From the NCBI GenBank assembly GCA_021372515.1, contig JAJFUG010000180.1, forward strand, positions 1-64,000: 64,000 nt of DNA. The letters are read 5' to 3'. The DNA is from a bacterium. Lineage in GTDB: Bacteria; Gemmatimonadota; Glassbacteria; GWA2-58-10. A model generated the notes under the pieces. The model saw only the letters and a list, made by a program, of their open reading frames with translations. It was not told where the DNA came from and searched no databases. Position numbers and translations under genes: made by a program. Position 1 is the first letter of the stretch, and every line of letters starts with the position of its first letter. Below, piece by piece: positions 2,240-59,272 of this stretch.

Positions 2240-5200
2240 TCACTCAGCTCCCGGATGAAAGGAACCAGCGTTCTCATCCGCTGGGTGTGAATTGCCTTTG
2301 CCGAAGACTTTCTCGATCAGCACGTAGAACAGCGGCGCGAACAGGATGACCAGGACCGTGCCGGTGATCATCCCTCCCAGCACCGAGGTGCCGATGGCGT
2401 TCATCGCGCCGGCGCCCGCGCCGCTGGTGATGGTCAGGGGCAGCACGCCGAAGCCGAAGGCGAGCGAGGTCATCACGATGGGCCGCAGCCGCAGCTTGGT
2501 GGCTTCCAGGGTCGCCTCGATCAGGCCGAGGCCCTGCTCCCGCCGCGCCTTGGCGAACTGGACGATCAGGATCGCGTTCTTGGTGGTCAGCCCCAGCGTG
2601 GTCAACAGCCCGATCTGGAAATATACATCATTGGGCATCCCCCGCAGCATCGAGAAGACCACCCCACCCAGGGCCCCCAGTGGCAGGGCCAGCAGGATCG
2701 CGATCGGGATGGGCCAGCTTTCGTACAGCGCCGCCAGGCAGAGGAATATCACCAGGATCGAAAAGGCGTAGAGCATGCCGGTCTGGGACGAGGCCTGGCG
2801 TTCCTGGTAGGAAAGCCCGTTCCAGTCGTAGCCGATCCCCTGGGGGAGCTTGGAGGCTATCTCCTCCATGGCCTGCATCGCCTCGCCGGAGCTGCGTCCG
2901 GGCGCCGGCTCAGCCCAGATGTTCAGCGAGGGGAAGCCGTTGAACCGCTCCAGGCGCGGCGAGCCGGAACTCCAGTGCGTGGTGGCGAAAGAGTTGAAAG
3001 GCACCATCGCCCCGGCGGTGTTGCGCACGTATAGTTTCTCCAGGTCGGAGGGCAGACGGCGGTACTGCGAGTCCGCCTGGACGTACACGCGCTTGACCCG
3101 CCCGGCCTGGATGAAGTTGTTCACATAGGCGCTGCCGAAAGCCGCGGACAGCGTGTTGTGGATCGAGCTGACCGGCAGGCCAAGGGCTCCGGCCCGGTCC
3201 CAGTCCACATCCACCCGGAACTGCGGCACGTCCTCCAGACCGTTGGGCCGGATACTCGCCAGCCGCGGGTCCTGCATCGCCATGCCCAGGAGCTGGTTAC
3301 GCGCGCCCATCAGGGCGGCGTGACCCAGTCCGCTGCGGTCCACGAGCTGGAAATCCACGCCCCGCGCGTTACCCATCTCGACCACGGCCGGGGGTGGGAA
3401 AGTGAAGACCATGGCCTCGCGCATACCGGATAGGGCGATCATGGCCCGCTGGGCCACAGCCGAGGCGCGCAGGTTCTTGTGACGGCGCTCGTGCCAGTCC
3501 CTCAGCTTGACGAAAACCATGGCGTTGTTCTGGCCGCGGCCGGAATAGCCGTAACCCACGATATTCATGCAGGAGGTCACGGCCTCTTTTTCGTTCTGCT
3601 CGAAATAACGTTGGACCTTGTCCGCCACATTCTTGGTCTGCTCCAGGGTCGAACCGGTGGGCATGATGATCTGTGTCAGCAGCATCCCCTGGTCCTCATC
3701 CGGCAGGAAGCCGGTGGGCATTCGCATGAACAGGAAGCCCAGTCCCACCACCAGCACCACGAACGCCAGCAGGTAGCGCAGTTTCCTGGAGAGGGCATGC
3801 CCCACCAGACGGATGTAGCTGTCCCGGAAGCGGAAGAAGCCCCGGTCGAACCAGAGGAAGAACGGCCGCAGGAACGATATGGCGCCCTCGGCGGCCTCGT
3901 GTCCCTTGGCCACCGGCTTGAGCAGCGTGGCGCACAGCACCGGGGTCAGGATCAGGGCCACCAGCACGGACAGCAGCATCGAGGCGGCGATGGTCACCGA
4001 GAACTGGCGGTAGATCACGCCGGTGGAGCCGGAGAAGAAAGCCATCGGGCCGAACACCGCGGCCAGCACCAGACCGATGCCGATCAGGGCGCCGGTGATC
4101 TGCTCCATGGACTTGGCCGTGGCCTCCCGCGGCGAAAGGCCTTCCTCGCCCATTATTCGCTCCACGTTCTCCACCACTACAATCGCGTCATCGACCAGTA
4201 ATCCGATTGCCAATACCATGGCGAACATGGTCAGCATGTTGATCGAAAATCCGAACAGCCCGAGCACGGCGAAAGTTCCCAGTAGCACCACCGGCACGGC
4301 AATGGTGGGGATCAGGGTCGCCCGGATGTTGCCCATGAACAGCCACATCACCAGGAACACCAGGATGATGGCTTCGATCAGGGTCTTGACCACCTCGTCG
4401 ATCGCCACCCGCACGAACGGGGTGGTATCGTAGGGGTAAACCACTTTCATGCCCTGCGGGAAGTAGCGGCTCATCTCCACCATCTTGGCTTTGACCGCGT
4501 CCGCCGTTTCCAGTGCGTTGGCGCCGGGCGCCTGACGGATGGCCAGGCCGGAGGAGGGTTTCCCGTTGTAGAACGACTTGACGTCGGCGGACTCGCTGCC
4601 CAGCTCGGTGCGCCCCACATCCTTGACCCGCACCACCGAGCCGTCCGGATTGTTGCGCACTGGGATATCGGCGAACTCCTCCGGGGTCTGGAGCAGGTTC
4701 TGTATGATGATCGAAGCGTTCAGCCGTTGGCCGGTCACCGAGGGCTGGCCGCCGAACTGGCCCGCCGAGACCTCGACATTGTAGGTCTTGAGCGCCGCGA
4801 CCACATCCTCCACGGTCAGGTGGTAGTCGGTCAGCTTGTCGGGATCGAGCCAGACACGCATCGAGTACTGCGAGCCGAATATCATCACCTCGCCCACACC
4901 CGGCACGCGGGAGAGGACCTTTTCCAGGTTCGACTGGGCGTAGTCCTGAAGGTCGGCGCTCTGCATGCTCCCGTCCTCGGAGACCAGGCCGACGATGATC
5001 AGGAAGTTGCGGGTGGATTTGCTCACCGACACGCCGGTGCGCTGGACCACCTCGGGCAGGCTGGACATGGCCAGTTGCAGCTTGTTCTGCACCTTGGCCC
5101 AGGCCAGGTCGGGATCGGTGCCGGGCTTGAAAGTCAGCTCGACGCGGGCTGATCCGGCGGCATCGCTCGACCCGGACAGGTAGAGCATGTCATCGAACCC

Positions 5201-5413
5201 GGTCATTTTCTGTTCGATGATCTGGGTGACACTGTTTTCCACGGTCTGAGCCGAGGCCCCGGGGTAGAACGCGTCGATGGCGATCGACGGCGGAGCGATC
5301 GGCGGGTACTGCGAGATAGGCAGATTGTGGATGGCCAGCGCGCCCGCCACCATCATCACGATGGCGACGACCCAGGCGAAGACCGGCCGCTCCAGGAAGA
5401 ATTTCGATAACAT
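2240..5413 (-). CDS. RND multidrug efflux permease, HAE1 (AcrB/MexB) family
   Basis: 1057 residues, the usual length for AcrB-type pumps. TM1 lies near residues 11-31, two large periplasmic loops follow TM1 and TM7, and the proton-relay pair Asp408-Asp409 in TM4 (motif G-L-L-V-D-D-A-I) matches the essential Asp pair of AcrB. It is a proton-driven inner-membrane trimer exporting hydrophobic drugs, detergents or similar compounds through the adaptor and OprM-like channel encoded on either side. The adaptor gene ends 12 bp upstream and the channel gene begins at its stop codon, so the three are one transcript. Nothing suggests a heavy-metal (CzcA) subtype. Confidence 0.97.
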   Translation of the reverse strand: MLSKFFLERPVFAWVVAIVMMVAGALAIHNLPISQYPPIAPPSIAIDAFYPGASAQTVENSVTQIIEQKMTGFDDMLYLSGSSDAAGSARVELTFKPGTDPDLAWAKVQNKLQLAMSSLPEVVQRTGVSVSKSTRNFLIIVGLVSEDGSMQSADLQDYAQSNLEKVLSRVPGVGEVMIFGSQYSMRVWLDPDKLTDYHLTVEDVVAALKTYNVEVSAGQFGGQPSVTGQRLNASIIIQNLLQTPEEFADIPVRNNPDGSVVRVKDVGRTELGSESADVKSFYNGKPSSGLAIRQAPGANALETADAVKAKMVEMSRYFPQGMKVVYPYDTTPFVRVAIDEVVKTLIEAIILVFLVMWLFMGNIRATLIPTIAVPVVLLGTFAVLGLFGFSINMLTMFAMVLAIGLLVDDAIVVVENVERIMGEEGLSPREATAKSMEQITGALIGIGLVLAAVFGPMAFFSGSTGVIYRQFSVTIAASMLLSVLVALILTPVLCATLLKPVAKGHEAAEGAISFLRPFFLWFDRGFFRFRDSYIRLVGHALSRKLRYLLAFVVLVVGLGFLFMRMPTGFLPDEDQGMLLTQIIMPTGSTLEQTKNVADKVQRYFEQNEKEAVTSCMNIVGYGYSGRGQNNAMVFVKLRDWHERRHKNLRASAVAQRAMIALSGMREAMVFTFPPPAVVEMGNARGVDFQLVDRSGLGHAALMGARNQLLGMAMQDPRLASIRPNGLEDVPQFRVDVDWDRAGALGLPVSSIHNTLSAAFGSAYVNNFIQAGRVKRVYVQADSQYRRLPSDLEKLYVRNTAGAMVPFNSFATTHWSSGSPRLERFNGFPSLNIWAEPAPGRSSGEAMQAMEEIASKLPQGIGYDWNGLSYQERQASSQTGMLYAFSILVIFLCLAALYESWPIPIAILLALPLGALGGVVFSMLRGMPNDVYFQIGLLTTLGLTTKNAILIVQFAKARREQGLGLIEATLEATKLRLRPIVMTSLAFGFGVLPLTITSGAGAGAMNAIGTSVLGGMITGTVLVILFAPLFYVLIEKVFGKGNSHPADENAGSFHPGAE

Positions 5414-5425
5414 CGCACGCCTCCG

Positions 5426-6616
5426 TCAGTGAGCTTGAGGCGCGCTCTGGGCGCCGGTTTCGTTATTGGCCGCGTACGGCGTCGCGGTGACTTTCATCCC
5501 CGGCCGCACGCGCTGGAGACCATCGACCACCAGGCGTTCCCCCGGGGCCAGCCCGTCTATCAGCAGCCACTTGTCGCCGATGGCGCGGTCCAGGGTGAGG
5601 GGATGGATCTGGATCTGGTCCTGCTCGTCCAGCACGTAGGCGAACGGGTTGCCTTTCGCGTCACGCATCACCGCGGGTTGCGGGGCCAGCACCGCGGCCG
5701 GGTTGTCGCCCTCCTTGATCAACGCCCGTACGAACATGCCCGGCAGCAGGATGCCGTCCGGGTTGGAGAACACCGCCCGCAGGGTGACCGAGCCGGTGCT
5801 GGGTTCCACGCTGATATCGCGGAACTGGAGCGTCCCGTCCAGAGGGTACTGGCCGTCATCGGACAGGAACAGCTTCACGTTCTGCTGGCCGTCGCCGTTC
5901 TGGTTGAGACGGCCTGCGGCCAGACGGCTGCGCAGACGGGCCAACTCGGCCGTGGACTGCTGGACATCCACGTAGATCGGGTCGAGCTGCTGGATCGTGG
6001 TCAGGGCCAGGGGCTGATAGGCTGTGACAATTGCGCCCTCGGTCACGCTGGATTTGCCGATGCGTCCCGAGATCGGGGCCGTGACCCGGGTGTAGGCCAG
6101 GTTGATGCTGGCGGTCTGCAGCATGGCTTTCCAGTACTGGATGTCGGCCTCGTTCTGGGTCAGGGCCGCCGCGGCGTCATCAACGTCCTGCTGGCTCACC
6201 GCCCTGTCGGCCAGAAGCTCCTTGTAGCGTTCGGCCCGGGCCCGGGTGGCGGAAAGGTTGGCCTCGGAACGTCCGAGGGCCGCCTTGGCGTTGTTCAGGG
6301 CCGCCTGGAACGGGGCCGGGTCGATCTGGTAGAGCACCTCGCCCGCCTTTACATCCGCGCCCTCGGTGAACAGCCGTTTCTGGATCAGGCCGCTGACCTG
6401 GGGACGGATCTCCGCGATGCGGAAAGGAGTCGTCCGGCCGGGAAGCTCGGTGGTCAGGGTCACCGGCTCGGTACCCACGGTGATGAAAGAGACTTCCGGC
6501 AGGTGCGCCGGACCGGACTGTGTCTTTTTGCACCCGGCCCAAGCGAGTAAGGACAGCAGAACCGCTGCCGTCGAAATCCATTTCATGGATTGTTTGAAAA
6601 ACCCATCGAACTGCAT
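5426..6616 (-). CDS. RND efflux periplasmic adaptor (membrane fusion protein), AcrA/MexA family lipoprotein
   Basis: 396 residues. The lipobox L-A-W-A-G-C marks lipidation at about Cys28. A lipoyl/barrel-sandwich hybrid follows (P-Q-V-S-G, then I-D-P-A-P-F), then the alpha-helical hairpin (about 95-170), the second lipoyl half (A-P-I-S-G-R-I-G) and beta-barrel/membrane-proximal domains, as in AcrA. It bridges the permease and the outer-membrane factor. The start at 6616 has GGAGG 7 nt upstream; the internal ATG at 6586, which would give a shorter signal peptide, has no ribosome binding site. First gene of the structural operon; the TetR gene upstream is the obvious candidate regulator. Confidence 0.95.
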   Translation of the reverse strand: MQFDGFFKQSMKWISTAAVLLSLLAWAGCKKTQSGPAHLPEVSFITVGTEPVTLTTELPGRTTPFRIAEIRPQVSGLIQKRLFTEGADVKAGEVLYQIDPAPFQAALNNAKAALGRSEANLSATRARAERYKELLADRAVSQQDVDDAAAALTQNEADIQYWKAMLQTASINLAYTRVTAPISGRIGKSSVTEGAIVTAYQPLALTTIQQLDPIYVDVQQSTAELARLRSRLAAGRLNQNGDGQQNVKLFLSDDGQYPLDGTLQFRDISVEPSTGSVTLRAVFSNPDGILLPGMFVRALIKEGDNPAAVLAPQPAVMRDAKGNPFAYVLDEQDQIQIHPLTLDRAIGDKWLLIDGLAPGERLVVDGLQRVRPGMKVTATPYAANNETGAQSAPQAH

Positions 6617-51812: not shown

Positions 51813-53279
51813 TCAGACCCCACGGGTCAGACGGCTGATCCTGCGGCCCGCCGCATCCACCAGCTCCACGTCCAGCGCCATCTGGCCCAGGGCGTGCGTG
51901 GCGCAGCTCAGGCACGGGTCATAGGCCCGGATCGCCACCTCGATGTGGTTCAGCAGGCCCTCGGTCACCTCGCGCCCTTCCAGGAACTGCTTCGCCGTCA
52001 CCTCGACCGCCTTGTTCATCGGGTCGTTGTTGTTGGTGGTGGAGACGATCAGGTTGCACATGGTGATCTGGTCCTGCTCGTTGATCCGGTAATGGTGGAA
52101 CAGGGTGCCGCGCGGCGCCTCGATCAGGCCCACACCCTCGTTCACTTTCTTACCCGTGCGCACCAGTTCGCCGGCCATCAGGTCCGGGTCGTTCAGCAGC
52201 GACTTGATCACCTCGGCGCTGTGCAGCATCTCGATCATGCGGGCCCAGTGGTAGTGCAGGCTGAAATTGTTGGGCTTGCCGCCGGTGTAGGCGCGGAAGA
52301 TTTCGAACTCTTTCTGCGCCAGCTCGCTGGGGATGAAATCGCAGGTGTTGAGCCGGGCCAGCGGTCCCACGCGGTACCAGCCGTTGGCCTTGCCCAGGCT
52401 CTTGATGAACGGGAATTTCATGTAGCTCCAGGAGCGGACCGCCTCACCGATGTAGTCGAGGTAGTTCGCATAATCCACCTGGTCGAGGATCTTGTTCCCG
52501 TCCTTGTCCACGGCCACGATGTTGCCGTGGTAGAAGTCCAGCGCCCCGTCCTTGCGGACCAGGCTCAGGTGGTTGGAGGGGAAGGAGCCGAAGCTGTCGA
52601 AGAAAGCCGGGTTCTTGGAATGGACTTTCTTGACCAGCTCGACCGAGGCCACCGACCAGGCGATCATCTGGTCGATGTCCTTGAGGAAATGGTCACGCTC
52701 GGTTACGGTCAGGTGCTTGTTGATCCCGCCGGGGATCGCGCCTGTGCCGTGGATTTTCTTGCCTGCGGTGGCCTGGATCAGCTCCTGGCCATACTTGCGC
52801 AGCAGGACTCCCCGCACGGCCAGCTCGGGATACTCGGCGGCCACGGCCAGCACACTGCGCTTGGTCACGTCGCTGTCGAAACCGAACAGCAGGTCGGGCG
52901 AGCAGAGGTGGTAGAAATGCAGGGCGTGGCTCTGCAGCATCTGGCCGTAGTGCATCAGACGGCGCATTTTCTCGGCCGTGGGGCTCAGGCCGTCCGGACC
53001 CACGCCCACGATCACGTCACAGGCCTTGGCCGCGGCCAGATGGTGGCTCACCGGGCAGATGCCGCACAGGCGCTGCACCACCACCGGGGCCTCCCAATAC
53101 GGGCGTCCCTGCACGAAACGCTCGAAGCCACGGAACTCCACGATATGCAGCCGGGTGCGCTCGACATGCCCGTCCTCGTCGATGGCGATCGTCACCTTGC
53201 CGTGCCCCTCGACCCGGGTCACGGGGTGGATCGTCACTTTCTTCATCATCTTTTCGCTGTGCATGGAGGTCGTACTCAT
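51813..53279 (-). CDS. hoxH: NAD-linked [NiFe]-hydrogenase large subunit HoxH
   Basis: 488 residues. The four nickel-site cysteines are present: L1 R-L-C72-G-I-C75-P-V-S-H-H and L2 D-P-C456-L-S-C459-A-T-H462. After His462 follows a 26-residue tail that HoxW should remove. N-terminal V-T-R-V-E-G-H-G-K carries the family Glu. Similarity, length and gene partners indicate the cytoplasmic bidirectional group 3d enzyme (H2 plus NAD+ to NADH plus H+, reversible). GGAGA lies 8 nt before the ATG. hoxY ends 19 bp upstream. Confidence 0.97.
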   Translation of the reverse strand: MSTTSMHSEKMMKKVTIHPVTRVEGHGKVTIAIDEDGHVERTRLHIVEFRGFERFVQGRPYWEAPVVVQRLCGICPVSHHLAAAKACDVIVGVGPDGLSPTAEKMRRLMHYGQMLQSHALHFYHLCSPDLLFGFDSDVTKRSVLAVAAEYPELAVRGVLLRKYGQELIQATAGKKIHGTGAIPGGINKHLTVTERDHFLKDIDQMIAWSVASVELVKKVHSKNPAFFDSFGSFPSNHLSLVRKDGALDFYHGNIVAVDKDGNKILDQVDYANYLDYIGEAVRSWSYMKFPFIKSLGKANGWYRVGPLARLNTCDFIPSELAQKEFEIFRAYTGGKPNNFSLHYHWARMIEMLHSAEVIKSLLNDPDLMAGELVRTGKKVNEGVGLIEAPRGTLFHHYRINEQDQITMCNLIVSTTNNNDPMNKAVEVTAKQFLEGREVTEGLLNHIEVAIRAYDPCLSCATHALGQMALDVELVDAAGRRISRLTRGV

Positions 53280-53298
53280 CTATCCGTCTCCCAAGTAA

Positions 53299-53838
53299 TC
53301 AGTCGTACTTGATAACCTCGTAGGGCAGGTCGGCCGGCTGGCCGGTCAGCAGAGCGACCAGGGCGTTCCAGATCAGGTCGGCCCGGGGCGGGCAGCCCGG
53401 CAGGAAGTAGTCGATCTTGACCACCTCGTGGCAGGGGTAGACCCGGTCCAGGATCAGCGGCAGCTCGGGGTCGTTCGGTATCTGCCCGTCCACCACGCTG
53501 GGGCCGTTCAGGTAGGCCTCGTCCAGGCATTCCTTGAGCGGGATGCCGTTGCGCATCGAGGGCAGGCCGCCCATGATTGCACACTCTCCCACCGAGATAA
53601 GAATCTTGCAGTTCTTGCGGAAAGAACGCAGCACTTCCACGTTCTCGGAGTTGCAGCAACCGCCCTCGATCAGTCCGACAAGGCATTCGCCGGTGAAATT
53701 CTTGATGTCGTTGATCGGGCTTTTGTCGAACTCGACCAGCTCGGCGAGCTTGAGGATGCGCTCATCGATGTCGAGCACCGACATGTGGCAGCCGAAGCAG
53801 CCGGCAAGCGAACATGTGGCGATTTTGGGTTTAGGCAT
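53299..53838 (-). CDS. hoxY: NAD-linked [NiFe]-hydrogenase small subunit HoxY
   Basis: 179 residues, no Tat signal, typical of the short cytoplasmic group 3 small subunit. Cysteines for the proximal [4Fe-4S] cluster are present: C9-x4-C14-x2-C17 at the N-terminus, V-G-E-C-A near 85 and L-P-G-C-P-P near 150, like the complex I NuoB/20-kDa fold. It passes electrons between the NiFe site in HoxH and the HoxFU diaphorase. It lies between hoxU (57-bp gap) and hoxH. Confidence 0.96.
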   Translation of the reverse strand: MPKPKIATCSLAGCFGCHMSVLDIDERILKLAELVEFDKSPINDIKNFTGECLVGLIEGGCCNSENVEVLRSFRKNCKILISVGECAIMGGLPSMRNGIPLKECLDEAYLNGPSVVDGQIPNDPELPLILDRVYPCHEVVKIDYFLPGCPPRADLIWNALVALLTGQPADLPYEVIKYD

Positions 53839-53895
53839 TGTTCCCTCGTTCTATGGTCCGGTTCCTTGTTCTCCCGATGACTGTGCCGGCGGGCC

Positions 53896-54603
53896 TCAGG
53901 CCTTGCCGGACTCGACATCCGCTCCGATCGGCGTGGCGTCGTACTGGCGCTGGCCGATGGGAACGCGGTAGGCGGTTTCCTTGACGATGATCGACCCGAC
54001 CGGGCAGGCCTTGACACACTCGTCGTTCGGCGAGATGTCCACGCCGGCCAGGCCCCTGGTGCTGCTGGCCTTGACCCGCACCTTGCCACCACGGCCGATG
54101 AAGCCCAGGATTTCCTTGCCGTCCAGCTCGCTGGCCGCGCGCACGCAGCGTCCGCACTGGATGCAGCGGTTCCCGTCGATGAATATCGACTTGTGCGTGG
54201 CGTCCAGCTTACGCAGCGGGAACATGTAGGGGAAACGCGGGGCCATGATGTTCAGGCGGTAGGCCAGGGCCTGAAGCTCACAGGAGCCGCTGCGCTCGCA
54301 GGAGGGGCAGAAATGGTTGCCCTCGGCGAAAAGCATCTCGATGATCGCCCGGCGCAGGTCGTTCAGCTCGTCGGTGTTGTTCTCGATCACCATGCCATCG
54401 GCCAGGGGGGTGGTGCAGGCGGCGGCGTTGCGGCCGTTGGCCTTGATCGTGCAGACCCGGCAGCTCCCGACCGGACGCAGCTTTTTCATGAAGCAGAGGT
54501 GGGGGATGTAGACCCCGTTGTCCGCGGCCGCCTCGAGGATCGAGCGGCCCTTGTCGGCCTCGCACTCTTTGCCGTCTATGGTGAATCCCAGTTTATCGCT
54601 CAT
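53896..54603 (-). CDS. hoxU: hydrogenase diaphorase iron-sulfur subunit HoxU
   Basis: 235 residues, equivalent to the N-terminal part of NuoG. An N-terminal [2Fe-2S] ferredoxin fold (Cys in H-L-C-F, G-S-C-R-V-C-T and A-A-C-T-T), a NuoG-type His-Cys3 site (H-F-C-P-S-C-E-R-S-G-S-C), then a ferredoxin-type [4Fe-4S] site (R-C-I-Q-C-G-R-C and E-C-V-K-A-C-P-V-G). It wires FMN in HoxF to HoxY. It starts 8 bp after hoxF. Confidence 0.96.
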   Translation of the reverse strand: MSDKLGFTIDGKECEADKGRSILEAAADNGVYIPHLCFMKKLRPVGSCRVCTIKANGRNAAACTTPLADGMVIENNTDELNDLRRAIIEMLFAEGNHFCPSCERSGSCELQALAYRLNIMAPRFPYMFPLRKLDATHKSIFIDGNRCIQCGRCVRAASELDGKEILGFIGRGGKVRVKASSTRGLAGVDISPNDECVKACPVGSIIVKETAYRVPIGQRQYDATPIGADVESGKA

Positions 54604-54611
54604 GTTCTCCT

Positions 54612-56435
54612 CTACGCCAGGTTAAGGGTTCGGCCGGTGGCGTCGCAGGCGTCGGCTACGGCGGCTTCCAGGTCGAAGCCGGTCAGATATTCGTCTTCCT
54701 TGATCAACTCCTCATAGCGGCTGCGGAAATTGGTCAGGGTGGTCAGGATCGGGTTGGGCGAGGTCTGGCCCAGTCCGCAACGGCTGGCGCTCTTGATTAT
54801 CCTGCCCCAGTCGGCCAGGTCGTCCAGGTCCTTGCGCGTGCCGTGGCCCTCGAAAATCTTGCGCAGCTTGGACTCCAGCATCTGGTTGCCCACCCGGCAG
54901 GGCACGCACCAGCCGCAGGACTCCTCGACGAAGAAGCGCATGAAATTGTGGACCACCTTCAGCAGGTCACGCTGCGGGCCGATGATCATCAGCGCGCCGC
55001 CGGTGGGCATGTCGTCGAAACATATCTTGCGGTCGAAATCCTTGTCCCCGATACAGGAGCCGCTGGGTCCGCCTACCTGCACGGCCAGCGCGTCATCGGC
55101 GCCCACGATCGAGAGGATCATGCGGATCGTGATGCCCATGGGCAACTCGTACACGCCCGGGCGCTTGCAGTCGCCCGATATCGAGAGCAGCTTGGTGCCG
55201 GAGGAAACGTTCGTCCCCTGGTCTATGAACCACTGCGGCCCCATCTCGACAATCCGGGCGCAGGCGGCCAGGGTCTCCACATTGTTGACCAGGGTCGGCT
55301 GGCCCTTGTAGCCCTCCTGGACCGGGAACGGCGGCCGGTCGCGGGGTTCGCCGCGCTTGCCCTCGGTGGAGTTGATCAGGGCGGATTCCTCGCCGCAGAT
55401 GTAGGCCCCGGCTCCGATCTGGATACGGATCTCGAAATCGAACCCGGCCTTTCCGGCCACGTCCTTGCCCAGCAGACCCTCTTTGCGGCGCTGCGCGAGC
55501 ACGTCCTCCAGGAAAGGCTGCAAGTACTGATATTCTTGGCGCAGGTAGAGGATGCCCTTGGGCGAGCCGATGGCGTAGCCGGCCAGGGTCATGCCCTCGA
55601 ACACCAGATCGGGGTTCTCGGTCAGGAGCACCCGGTCGGTGAACGTGCCGGGCTCACCCTCGTCCGCATTGCAGAACACGTAGCGGCGCGAGCCCTTGGA
55701 GCGCGAGCAGAATTCCCATTTCATGCCGGTGGGGAACCCGGCGCCGCCGCGGCCGCGCAGCTTGGCGGCCTTGACCTGCTCGATCACCTCCTGCGGGGTC
55801 ATGGCGACCGCTTTGCGCAGGGCCGCGCCCTTGGCCATGGCGCCGAACAGGACCGGGCCTTTTTTGCGCAGGTTGTTGTTCACCATGGAGCGGATCAGCG
55901 GGTGGGCGTTGTTCCCGTCGCCCAGGCCCATCTCGTCCACCAGCGCCTGCACGCTCTTGCCGGCCTTGATCCCGGCCACGATCTTGCGGGCCTTGGCGGC
56001 GTTCAGGTTGACAAAGGGCTTGCCGGCGATCAGGGCGGCCGGTTCCTGGTCGCTCATCCCGATACAGGAGGTCTCGCTCAGCGAGATCAGGCCGTCCGCG
56101 GTCACCTGGCCGAAAGCGATCCCGGCCGATTCCTCGAACGCCTTCTTCACCTCCTCGAAACCCATCATTTCCGAGACCGCGCTGTTGTTCAGGTAGATCG
56201 GCACGCGTCCGGTGCTTTTTTCGCTCAGGAAATGGTAGAATGACACCACGCCTTCCACTTCAATCCGCGAGATTTCGAGCGTCTGGGCGATCATGTCGAT
56301 CATCTGTTCCGAGACCCGGCCGTAGGCGGACTGCACTTTGCGCACCACGTTGATCAGGCGCGTCCGCTTGTTGTCCTCGGTCTCGGCGATCGCCTTTATC
56401 TCGCCGGCCAGTACTTTGGGGTCCAGGTCCTGCAT
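54612..56435 (-). CDS. hoxF: hydrogenase diaphorase subunit HoxF (NuoE-NuoF fusion)
   Basis: 607 residues. The N-terminal NuoE-like thioredoxin domain (about 1-165) is fused to a NuoF part: NAD-binding G-R-G-G-A-G-F-P-T-G (near 228), FMN-binding G-A-G-A-Y-I-C-G-E-E-S-A-L (near 348) and [4Fe-4S] ligands S-C-G-W-C-V-P-C-R plus the later R-C-G-L-G. It oxidises or reduces NAD(H). The NuoE-like domain keeps only one of the usual four cysteines (S-C-I-G-M-S-D-Q), as I recall for Cupriavidus-type HoxF, so that cluster is probably absent. First gene of the operon; GGGAGGGA precedes the ATG. Confidence 0.96.
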   Translation of the reverse strand: MQDLDPKVLAGEIKAIAETEDNKRTRLINVVRKVQSAYGRVSEQMIDMIAQTLEISRIEVEGVVSFYHFLSEKSTGRVPIYLNNSAVSEMMGFEEVKKAFEESAGIAFGQVTADGLISLSETSCIGMSDQEPAALIAGKPFVNLNAAKARKIVAGIKAGKSVQALVDEMGLGDGNNAHPLIRSMVNNNLRKKGPVLFGAMAKGAALRKAVAMTPQEVIEQVKAAKLRGRGGAGFPTGMKWEFCSRSKGSRRYVFCNADEGEPGTFTDRVLLTENPDLVFEGMTLAGYAIGSPKGILYLRQEYQYLQPFLEDVLAQRRKEGLLGKDVAGKAGFDFEIRIQIGAGAYICGEESALINSTEGKRGEPRDRPPFPVQEGYKGQPTLVNNVETLAACARIVEMGPQWFIDQGTNVSSGTKLLSISGDCKRPGVYELPMGITIRMILSIVGADDALAVQVGGPSGSCIGDKDFDRKICFDDMPTGGALMIIGPQRDLLKVVHNFMRFFVEESCGWCVPCRVGNQMLESKLRKIFEGHGTRKDLDDLADWGRIIKSASRCGLGQTSPNPILTTLTNFRSRYEELIKEDEYLTGFDLEAAVADACDATGRTLNLA

Positions 56436-56927: not shown

Positions 56928-57389
56928 ATGATTTCCTATCCCGGACAGAACCGCGGAGAGAGCGAGCCCGGGGGCGACAAGCTGGTGCCCCTGCTGGAGG
57001 AGCGCACCCGTCTCGAGGAGCGCCTGCGCCAGATCGACCTGCGGGGCAAGGCGATGGAGCCGGAGGTGGTGCGTCGGGTGAGCGCCGATTACCGCACGCG
57101 CCTGGAATACCTGAGCAGTGAGATCACGCGCCAGGCCCGTCTGCTCGAGACCACTCTGTCCAGCTACCGAGAGCTGATCGGTCTGCTGGAGCGCGGGATC
57201 GAGCTGGGTGAGCGCTCGCTGGATGAGCTCAAGGTGCGCAGCGCCCTGGGTGAGTACAGCGGCGAGGACCTGGAGCAGATCGGGCGCGAAAAGAAAGAGA
57301 AAGTGGAATACTACCGTGGCAAGGCCCGCAGCTACCGCGCCAACGTGGAGCGGATCGAGGGTGTGCTGGGCCAGATTGCCAAGAACTGA
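56928..57389 (+). CDS. coiled-coil protein, homologous to the N-terminus of the next gene product
   Basis: 153 residues, almost wholly charged and helical, with heptad-like spacing of Leu/Ile (L-L-E-E-R-T-R-L-E-E-R-L-R-Q-I). Two segments recur in the next protein: P-E-V-V-R-R-V-S-A-D-Y versus P-F-V-L-H-K-L-S-Q-E-Y, and S-A-L-G-E-Y-S-G-E-D-L versus H-L-L-G-E-Y-G-P-E-E-F, at matching distances. No named family recognised. The start at 56928 is chosen as the only ATG near a G-rich sequence; its ribosome site is poor. It is cytoplasmic, as no signal or TM segment is seen, and is 11 bp upstream of its paralogue. Confidence 0.75.
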   Translation: MISYPGQNRGESEPGGDKLVPLLEERTRLEERLRQIDLRGKAMEPEVVRRVSADYRTRLEYLSSEITRQARLLETTLSSYRELIGLLERGIELGERSLDELKVRSALGEYSGEDLEQIGREKKEKVEYYRGKARSYRANVERIEGVLGQIAKN

Positions 57390-57400
57390 GGTCGATAGAG

Positions 57401-59272
57401 ATGCCGGACGGGACTGAAAAGAACAGCATCGCCGGGGACAGCCGCCTGACACCGGGGTTCCGGTTCATGGGCAAGAGCCTGGGCGAACTGCTCGAACTCA
57501 AGGCCAGCCTGCGCAAACGCCTGGCTTTCCTGGAGGAGAACCGCGCCCGGATCAGCCCGTTCGTGCTGCACAAGCTGAGCCAGGAATACAAGTCCTACCT
57601 CGACACCGTGGACAGCGAGCTGGCGCTCAACCTCTGCGAGTACGAGATAAAGCTCTCGGAGCTGCGCCTGTTTTCCAGCCAGCTCCAGCTTTTGCGCAAG
57701 ACCTATTCCGACAACATCGAGGAGATTCGTCTGCGCCACCTGCTGGGCGAGTACGGGCCGGAGGAGTTCGACCGTCTGACCCGCGACCACGAGGAGCGCA
57801 TGCGTATTTTCGAGGAGAACCTGGCGCGCTACGACAGTGAGGAACGCCGGATCCAGGCTTTCCTGGAGCAGACCGGGTTCAGCCGCGCGGAGATGGCGGC
57901 GGGCGCGGCAGCCGCACCCGAACCAGCCCCGTCCGCGCCGCAGGCCAAGGGCGCAATACGGGTCAAGGCCGAGCCGCAAGCCAAGGCGGAGCCGCAGGCC
58001 AGGGTCGAAACTCCAGCCCCGGTCATGCCCGCGCCGACTGCGCGAAGCGCTCCGGAGCCGGCCGCCGAACCGGTGCTCGAAGCTCCGGCCCCGCCCAAAG
58101 CCGAGGCCGTCCCGAGCACGCCGCCCCCAGCGGCTGCGCGGCTCGAATTGCGCCAGGCGCCAGCGCCCAGTCAGAAACGCCCGCCGGTCGAGGTCACGCC
58201 GTCGGATATCGCCGACCTGATGGGTCCCTCTCCGGTGGGCCGGCCGGGCAGCGAGCCGCAGCCGGAACCTGCACCGGAGTTCAAGAGCGAAACAGAGGGG
58301 CTCCCCGGCCTGGAGGAGATATTCGGCGCACCCGTCCCGGAGAAGTCCCTGGAGATGGCAGTCGCGCTGGATGCCGTTGCCCCGGCCGAACCCGCTACGC
58401 CGGTCCAGGGCCAGGCCGCCGGCCCGGAGGAGCTGTTCGAGTCCCTGCTTCAGGAACAGAGCGCAGCGGAGCCGGTGGCGGCTCAGGAAAGCGAACCGGT
58501 CGAAGCCGCTGCCGAGGCGGCCCCGGAGGCATTGGAGCAGTTCGCCACGGCGGGAATCCCGGAGCTTGAGATCAGACTGGACCAGGCCCCGACTGCGGCC
58601 GAGACTGCACTCGCCGAAAAGCAGGGCGCGGTCCAGGACGAGCTGGATGCGCTCGACTTGGACCTGCTGCAGATAAAGAACGCCGCTGCGGCCAAAAGCC
58701 CGGCGGAGGAGCCTGCGCAGTCAGAGAAAGAGCCCGTGGCCGCCGCGCCCTCGGTCAGCTTCGACCTCGACCTGGAGGCGCTGATGGAGGCCAACCGTGG
58801 CGCCGAGCAGGCGCCCAAGCCCGCGGCTCCGGTCCCGCAACCGCCTGTCGAGGCCGCTCCGGTCCAGCCCCCGCTGATCGAGATACCATCCGCTCCGGCC
58901 CTGGATGCCCCGGTCCCGGTCACGGACGCGGCCGAGCCGGAAATGATCCAGCCGCCGGCTGCGGCGGAGGAAGAGATTGAGCTGCGCTGGGAGCCGCTTC
59001 CACGCGAGAGCGCGGCTGAGCACGAGGTCCAGCCGGCCTCCGGCGTGCCGCAGACGGAGAAGGCCGCGCGGCGCGCCCTGCCGCTGGACGGCAGGATCGA
59101 GCTGACACTGGACCTCGACCGCACGGACCTCGATCCGCAGAAAATCCTGACCGTCAATCAGACTATCGACGCGATCAAGAAAAAGACAGTCAAGTGCCCC
59201 AACTGCGGGACCATGAATTACGCCATCCGCTGGTACTGCGAAAACTGTGAGGCCACTCTCACCACTCTCTGA
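57401..59272 (+). CDS. coiled-coil, Pro/Ala/Glu-rich linker and zinc-ribbon protein
   Basis: 623 residues. The N-terminal coiled-coil domain (about 20-160) is paralogous to the whole preceding protein. A long low-complexity Ala/Pro/Glu linker (about 165-560) with short acidic motifs (e.g. L-P-G-L-E-E-I-F-G, L-D-A-L-D-L-D-L-L, V-S-F-D-L-D-L-E) follows. The protein ends in a zinc ribbon C-P-N-C-x(11)-C-E-N-C (about 600-618). No signal peptide or TM. The layout suggests a scaffold with a flexible tether and a C-terminal binding module. Function unknown. The linker should not be trusted for homology searches. Confidence 0.8.
   Translation: MPDGTEKNSIAGDSRLTPGFRFMGKSLGELLELKASLRKRLAFLEENRARISPFVLHKLSQEYKSYLDTVDSELALNLCEYEIKLSELRLFSSQLQLLRKTYSDNIEEIRLRHLLGEYGPEEFDRLTRDHEERMRIFEENLARYDSEERRIQAFLEQTGFSRAEMAAGAAAAPEPAPSAPQAKGAIRVKAEPQAKAEPQARVETPAPVMPAPTARSAPEPAAEPVLEAPAPPKAEAVPSTPPPAAARLELRQAPAPSQKRPPVEVTPSDIADLMGPSPVGRPGSEPQPEPAPEFKSETEGLPGLEEIFGAPVPEKSLEMAVALDAVAPAEPATPVQGQAAGPEELFESLLQEQSAAEPVAAQESEPVEAAAEAAPEALEQFATAGIPELEIRLDQAPTAAETALAEKQGAVQDELDALDLDLLQIKNAAAAKSPAEEPAQSEKEPVAAAPSVSFDLDLEALMEANRGAEQAPKPAAPVPQPPVEAAPVQPPLIEIPSAPALDAPVPVTDAAEPEMIQPPAAAEEEIELRWEPLPRESAAEHEVQPASGVPQTEKAARRALPLDGRIELTLDLDRTDLDPQKILTVNQTIDAIKKKTVKCPNCGTMNYAIRWYCENCEATLTTL

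Follow-up and report, generated by a model that had tools for sequence, protein, structure and literature searches.

A tandem coiled-coil gene pair of Glassbacteria as the duplicated form of a Gemmatimonadota coiled-coil and zinc-ribbon family

Two adjacent genes in a 64,000-nucleotide stretch of Glassbacteria DNA (positions 1 to 64,000 of contig JAJFUG010000180.1, assembly GCA_021372515.1; hereafter the window) are, judged by their sequences, the duplicated, Glassbacteria-type form of a little-studied Gemmatimonadota family, here named CC-ZR. The first gene codes for P1, a stand-alone coiled-coil protein, and the second for P2, in which a coiled coil is joined by a disordered linker to a C-terminal zinc ribbon; they lie head to tail on a shared strand with a spacing of 11 bases. 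The simplest and most likely history reconstructed from these comparisons would be one duplication in a Glassbacteria-type lineage followed by loss of the linker and ribbon by P1, and the family assignment, duplication, and P1 loss taken jointly were given a probability of about 0.9. The draft genome that contains the window (on contig C180) comprises 4.87 Mb and is 99.5% complete. An earlier note on this DNA had proposed a local duplication followed by gain of the tether and ribbon in the second copy, stated that its author knew of no described family with this layout, and suggested a scaffold recruiting clients through acidic motifs.

P1 matched only itself and P2 in its own genome (25% identity, E 2.7e-8), and phmmer with P1 over the open reading frames (ORFs) in the window and in 20 related loci returned family members alone at E 0.01. 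Alignment of six P1 proteins with six P2 N-domains by hhalign gave a probability of 98 and a score of 88 over 141 columns, compared to 15 for a reversed profile and a maximum of 21 for heptad-preserving column shuffles (n=50). As this score was far above those of the reversed and shuffled profiles, the likeness was not attributable to coiled-coil composition, and the profile alignment identifies the shared domain of ~140 residues as homologous over its full length. An origin of the likeness in composition, or in a common helical hairpin turn (LGEYxxEE) alone, would draw on a hairpin motif that we take to be of a generic kind; it was refuted by the shuffle and reversal controls and is further contradicted by an alignment spanning three helices, by five residues invariant in 57 aligned coiled-coil domains (Tyr55, Glu100, Arg104, Gly108, and Glu109 in P1 numbering), and by a tree that places P1 with P2, such that its probability is close to nil. 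The resemblance between full-length P1 and the P2 N-domain with spaced motifs, as described in the earlier note, was therefore upheld, including SPFVLHKLSQEY and LGEYGPEE as the P2 counterparts of the P1 motifs, and the similarity persisted once composition was corrected for by heptad shuffles and reversal; its disappearance under such a correction was what the note had named as grounds for giving up its claim. AlphaFold2 modeled P1 as three helices with a mean predicted local distance difference test (pLDDT) score of 91.6 and the P2 N-domain as the same three helices, with high confidence for the P2 coiled coil and ribbon and low confidence for the linker. In these models, P1 residues 1-14 were unstructured and the remainder helical with no PRC barrel, and the P2 N-terminus also began with an unstructured stretch.

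The coiled-coil profile matched 259/395 genomes of the phylum, mostly with one match per genome and with two in the window's family (6/6). A search with P2 matched 41/101 relatives at E 0.001, and a scan for relatives over named genomes confirmed 192 relatives, of which the best 79 loci carry the locus-level counts and were all titled Gemmatimonadota or Glassbacteria. A coiled-coil ORF was identified in 76 of these best 79 loci (77 ORFs in total, with two only in L054 from the window's family), and a C-terminal ribbon of a single spacing, C-x2-C-x3-N-x6-C-x2-C ending seven residues before the C-terminus, was conserved in 75/77 ORFs, the ribbon-less ORFs being the P1 gene of L054 and, in L119, a fragment of 107 residues. 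Within the window's own genome, a 57-row profile matched both P1 (E 2.2e-31) and P2 (E 5.4e-16), and the terminal ribbon that marks the family (C-x2-C-x10-C-x2-C, 7 residues from the end) was present in P2, whereas P1 ends after the coiled coil. A candidate third copy on contig C91 (E 3.2e-4, 52 positions) was rejected and was chemoreceptor-like by eye. Neither P1 nor P2 reached any family cut-off in curated Pfam or NCBIfam, in line with the earlier statement on this layout; PADLOC matched 0 families, and PHROGs gave one marginal match to the ribbon only (E 0.01). In the literature searched, no paper mentioned Gemmatimonadota together with a zinc ribbon, and among the papers listed on Gemmatimonadetes, zinc ribbons, and coiled coils, titles and abstract beginnings contained no description of a CC-ZR-like family.

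Nine genomes outside the window's family (G028, G039, G167, G202, G212, G291, G323, G363, and G380) had two coiled-coil profile matches each, representing either split genes or true second copies. The single-gene form was also found in L108 (Roseisolibacter sp. H3M3-2; ORF 4645-6102), and as its record title lacks a metagenome-assembled genome label, a cultured CC-ZR host may exist.

The duplication was recovered in a maximum-likelihood tree of the coiled coils, with long branches and no true root, in which P1 and the P2 N-domains grouped together (99/98) to the exclusion of the single-gene proteins, with each forming its own group inside this larger one (98/94 and 100/99). The tandem P1-P2 arrangement was adjacent in 6/6 genomes of the window's family. 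The local duplication of the earlier note was thus supported, and its question of whether the pair always co-occurs was answered in part: the tandem was constant in the window's family, but the coiled-coil domain was not confined to the pair and occurs in a single-gene form across the phylum. The direction of change that it proposed, in which a short coiled-coil ancestor was duplicated and the second copy acquired the tether and ribbon, was not supported and is now very improbable. P1 was nearer to the coiled coil of the phylum than the P2 N-domain (hhalign scores of 121 versus 89) and had the shorter branch (1.07 versus 2.18), as such a polarity would predict; however, slower change in P1 accounts for its closeness, and the same ribbon in 75/77 ORFs, either single-gene or P2-type, with 16 from across the phylum aligning gap-free, would under this history have to have arisen twice. 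Loss in P1 is likelier than gain in P2 because the single-gene relatives already have the coiled coil, linker, and ribbon.

The features of the two genes are collected in Table 1. The P2 linker was composed of 20% Ala, 16% Pro, and 13% Glu, and the ribbon sequence CPNCGTMNYAIRWYCENC occupies residues 599-616, so that both the Pro/Ala/Glu tether with repeated acidic short motifs and the C-P-N-C...C-E-N-C ribbon were found as previously described.

Table 1. Predicted features of the P1 and P2 genes, in window coordinates.
Feature	Position	Strand	Basis
P1, stand-alone coiled-coil protein, 153 aa	56928..57389	+	ORF; orthologues adjoin P2 in 5/5 other family genomes
P1 three-helix coiled-coil domain, residues 15-152 (helices 15-42, 45-106, 112-152)	56970..57383	+	AlphaFold model
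P1 family signature PEVVRRVSADY (family consensus P-x-x-V-x-x-R-V-x-x-D-Y)	57060..57092	+	Sequence, family alignment
P1 hairpin-turn signature LGEYSGED (family consensus L-R-x-x-V-G-E)	57246..57269	+	Sequence, family alignment
P2, coiled coil, disordered linker, and C-terminal zinc ribbon, 623 aa	57401..59272	+	ORF; orthologues
P2 coiled-coil domain, residues 27-158 (helices 27-46, 53-114, 120-158)	57479..57874	+	AlphaFold model; homology to P1
P2 Pro/Ala/Glu-rich disordered linker, about residues 171-584	57911..59152	+	pLDDT mostly <55; composition
P2 linker motif SDIADLM (acidic-hydrophobic)	58202..58222	+	Sequence
P2 linker motif LPGLEEIF; LPGL recurs in 5/7 linker pieces	58301..58324	+	Sequence
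P2 linker motif QDELDALDLDLLQI, within the only confident long linker helix (399-430)	58634..58675	+	Model, sequence
P2 linker motif FDLDLEALM	58760..58786	+	Sequence
P2 short pre-ribbon helix, residues 585-594 (NQTIDAIKKK region), nearly identical across family	59153..59182	+	Model, alignment
P2 zinc ribbon C-x2-C-x3-N-x6-C-x2-C; last Cys 7 residues from C-terminus	59195..59248	+	Alignment; pLDDT about 89

The linkers carried conserved short motifs. The pattern D[ED][LFMI]xF[LIM], mostly in the form DELAFLKSV, was present in 30/42 linkers compared to a mean of 0.009 and a maximum of 1 in 1000 shuffles; it was not found in the L054 linker. As an exact degenerate DNA pattern, the DELAFLKSV-type motif occurred in 11/61 genomes with 0 control matches, and all 11 fetched sites lay in ORFs matching the CC-ZR profile. 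A docking motif common to other proteins was consequently rejected for the exact pattern, which occurred in no other gene of the 61 genomes (11/11 in CC-ZR ORFs; looser forms were not searched). The linkers of the window's family instead contained recurring short acidic-hydrophobic motifs such as FDLDLEALM, FDLDDIF, and LDLDAIM, and the pattern [LI][DEAN][DESAG][IL][FM] was counted 12 times in seven linker pieces against a mean of 0.11 and a maximum of 3 in 2000 shuffles, a count that overstates the surprise since the pattern was written after viewing these linkers. Because their acidic and hydrophobic positions follow a common pattern, we infer that the DELAFLKSV-type and Glassbacteria motifs may be one and the same. 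Two chemoreceptor-like proteins of the window's genome (L138 and L139 on contigs C91 and C109) ended in a tail rich in Pro, Ala, and Lys that carries an acidic motif at its terminus (PLNEDDLKEL and PLDENDFKDF), recalling the P2 linker motifs.

The genomic neighborhood was conserved in most of the phylum, with neighbor families checked on examples. Of the best 79 loci among the 192 relatives, 72 contained pyrC, which always shared the strand of the CC-ZR gene and lay upstream of it in 71; pyrB was identified in 68 and pyrR in 59, both without exception upstream and on that strand. A ribosomal rpsT gene (S20 recognized by eye) was downstream in 74/76 coiled-coil loci and on the opposite strand in all 74, followed by an M50 peptidase (59 loci) and scpA (67 loci) on the strand of the CC-ZR gene. 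In the window's family the pair is flanked on one side by idh, obgE, and dprA, which it precedes, and on the other by a hydrogenase-type cluster encoded on the opposite strand. A hydrogenase or IDH partner was rejected, as the single-gene relatives sit after pyrR-pyrB-pyrC and neither neighborhood explains the function, and a narrow operon function is disfavored because the gene moved place yet kept its form. The hydrogenase-type cluster in the window (51813-56435, minus strand, divergent from P1) included genes that by eye resembled a NiFe large subunit, a small subunit, an Fe-S protein, and HoxF, and one 607-aa protein of the cluster fuses 2Fe-2S thioredoxin and Nuo51 domains.

Beyond the observed family, duplication, domain layout, and conservation of motif and ribbon, we consider it about an even bet that CC-ZR proteins act as oligomeric adaptors docking a client through the linker motifs. 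The N-terminal three-helix coiled coil would self-associate, and the flexible Pro/Ala/Glu linker would present short amphipathic acidic motifs to a docking partner, the candidate motifs being DELAFLKSV-type in most of the phylum and several DL[DE]x[IL][FM]-type copies in Glassbacteria. The C-terminal zinc ribbon could hold a second ligand, either protein or RNA, and in Glassbacteria P1 and P2 would most likely pair through their coiled coils as a hetero-oligomer. A scaffold recruiting clients via acidic motifs, as suggested in the earlier note, remains the best guess in light of the motif counts in both sets of linkers. Several points weigh against this adaptor reading. The DELAFLKSV form was missing in 12/42 linkers, including that of the window, and the neighbors differ by family (pyrRBC and rpsT for the majority of the phylum versus idh-obgE-dprA and hydrogenase genes in the window's family), such that no functional link can be drawn from them. 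Additionally, 136/395 genomes of the phylum had no coiled-coil profile match, and with about a third of genomes thus unmatched, CC-ZR is not essential to the phylum.

A different role is suggested by the ribbon, namely a nucleic-acid or ribosome-linked factor in which a RanBP2-type ribbon would bind single-stranded RNA and the coiled coil merely dimerize. The RanBP2-type family PF00641 matched 13/13 scanned members at E up to 0.05, the conserved Asn of C-x2-C-x3-N-x6-C-x2-C was present in 75/75 ribbons, and the ribbon matched only weak and mixed zinc proteins among PDB sequences, including ZNF265 (E 0.29) and ribosomal eS31 (E 0.0067), along with the frequent rpsT downstream. However, rpsT is on the opposite strand and therefore not an operon partner, the linker is acidic, and the segment after the Asn is mostly Y-P-T-E-W outside the Glassbacteria, with Glu where the window has Arg; such an Arg together with an aromatic residue contacts RNA in known fingers. 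This RNA-binding role is distinctly unlikely.

The coiled coil itself points toward archaeal CdvA (PF18822; structures 9s9g and 9s9i), which has been described as a PRC domain, three-helix coiled coil, flexible linker or tail, and short binding peptide (PMC12818579). If CC-ZR were a distant, bacterial branch of the CdvA-like coiled coil, to which the non-ESCRT recruiter in archaeal cell division belongs, it might, like CdvA, build filaments or patches as a membrane or cell-cycle platform, with the DELAFLKSV-type peptide of the flexible tail recruiting a client without an ESCRT-III partner, and the Glassbacteria would have reached or kept the two-paralogue layout of Thermoproteales arCOG03733/arCOG03734. 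At E up to 0.1, PF18822 matched 19/57 of the coiled-coil domains, the lowest E being 2.4e-5, whereas with reversed sequences CdvA was absent among the 25 families listed, the smallest of which had 2 matching members, so at most 2/56. In 61 genomes, 7/8 PF18822 sites at E up to 0.01 were the CC-ZR gene, and PF18822 was the top match in one register in 7/7 of those genes and in 0/7 when reversed. S. islandicus CdvA ranked first in VIA-align for both models, with Z scores for P1 of 12.5 (132 aligned, 3.9 Å) and 11.9 (131 aligned, 2.3 Å; next 10.6) and for P2 of 11.3 (121 aligned, 2.4 Å; next 10.7). Against this, Z scores of 11-13 are usual for helical bundles, Foldseek alone ranked CdvA 15th (E 0.82), the PF18822 cut-off was passed in 0/61 genomes (best 24.1 versus 30 bits) with no match at E 0.01 in the window's family (0/6), and APG6_N, another coiled-coil family, matched as many domains (21/57). 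Moreover, no PRC domain was present in the models or matched in Pfam, the CC-ZR ribbon is C-terminal rather than N-terminal as in the archaeal pair, PspA/IM30 (bacterial ESCRT-III) was over its cut-off in 0/6 genomes of the window's family, and FtsZ was found in 5/6 of them. The CdvA reading is accordingly considered unlikely, and a literature search for CdvA in bacteria did not return the phrase 'bacterial CdvA'.

A PspA/ESCRT-III adaptor role was rejected for the window's family, where PspA/IM30 was identified in 0/6 genomes versus 52/61 overall, and FtsZ replacement was also rejected, with FtsZ in 25/26 genomes and 5/6 of the window's family, the miss being an 88% complete genome. The PspA/IM30 result in the window's family represents a lineage-level loss or absence of bacterial ESCRT-III; PMC10936438 reports that ESCRT homologues are not identifiable in bacteria. 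Other structure searches gave limited signals, with no Foldseek match at E 0.001. By sequence, the best PDB match of the P1 profile was 8whn (E 4.2e-4), the cytoplasmic domain of an OST1-like protein from an Asgard archaeon, a coiled coil in which the V-x-x-Y and L-K-x-R-Y-x-x-G spacing is similar; it fell to E 0.15 with the 57-row profile, for which generic coiled coils alone reached E 1 and CdvA was not listed.

The analysis replaces an anonymous ORF pair with one definable family of fixed anatomy and a conserved candidate docking motif, spanning the greater part of a phylum from which few members have been cultured, and a direct bench prediction follows from each of the motif, the ribbon, and the division into P1 and P2. 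Should the CdvA link be true, it would place a non-ESCRT part of the archaeal division machinery in bacteria and bear on the age of the coiled coil.

Comparison with known systems places CC-ZR near several architectures. PopZ-type polar scaffolds combine an oligomerization domain, an acidic Pro-rich disordered linker, and a client-docking segment in a layout akin to CC-ZR. The FlgZ / CdsZ (CT398) / MSMEG_4306 family has, as in CC-ZR, a coiled-coil hairpin and C-terminal zinc ribbon, and 4ilo, 3na7, and 5y05 appeared in the VIA-align lists; however, P2 was far under the cut-off of the FlgZ/CdsZ ribbon PF02591 (11.5 versus 29.1 bits; 16.5 in the genome search), its ribbon spacing is short, and a linker of ~415 residues lies in between. 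The window's genome also encodes a separate true PF02591 (FlgZ/CdsZ-type) gene (51.2 bits; contig C180, 76999-77097), about 17.7 kb downstream of P2. By spacing, conserved Asn, and score, the CC-ZR ribbon is nearest to RanBP2-type fingers, while the PF00641 cut-off of 27 bits was not reached (19.7 for the window's P2 and 26.7 for the best relative). RanBP2-type fingers typically have a Trp two residues before the first Cys, which CC-ZR ribbons lack, having instead a Trp two before the third Cys. The coiled-coil fold of CdvA is matched by both CC-ZR models, with a C-terminal zinc ribbon instead of the PRC barrel. Lastly, Thermoproteales have two adjacent CdvA-like paralogues (arCOG03733/arCOG03734), only one of which carries a zinc ribbon (PMC10936438, Makarova et al. 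2024). Compared by published description only, this pair is a striking parallel in layout to P1 and P2, differing in that a coiled coil connects the archaeal ribbon, which is N-terminal (PMC10936438), whereas P2 has its ribbon at the C-terminus, connected through a disordered linker.

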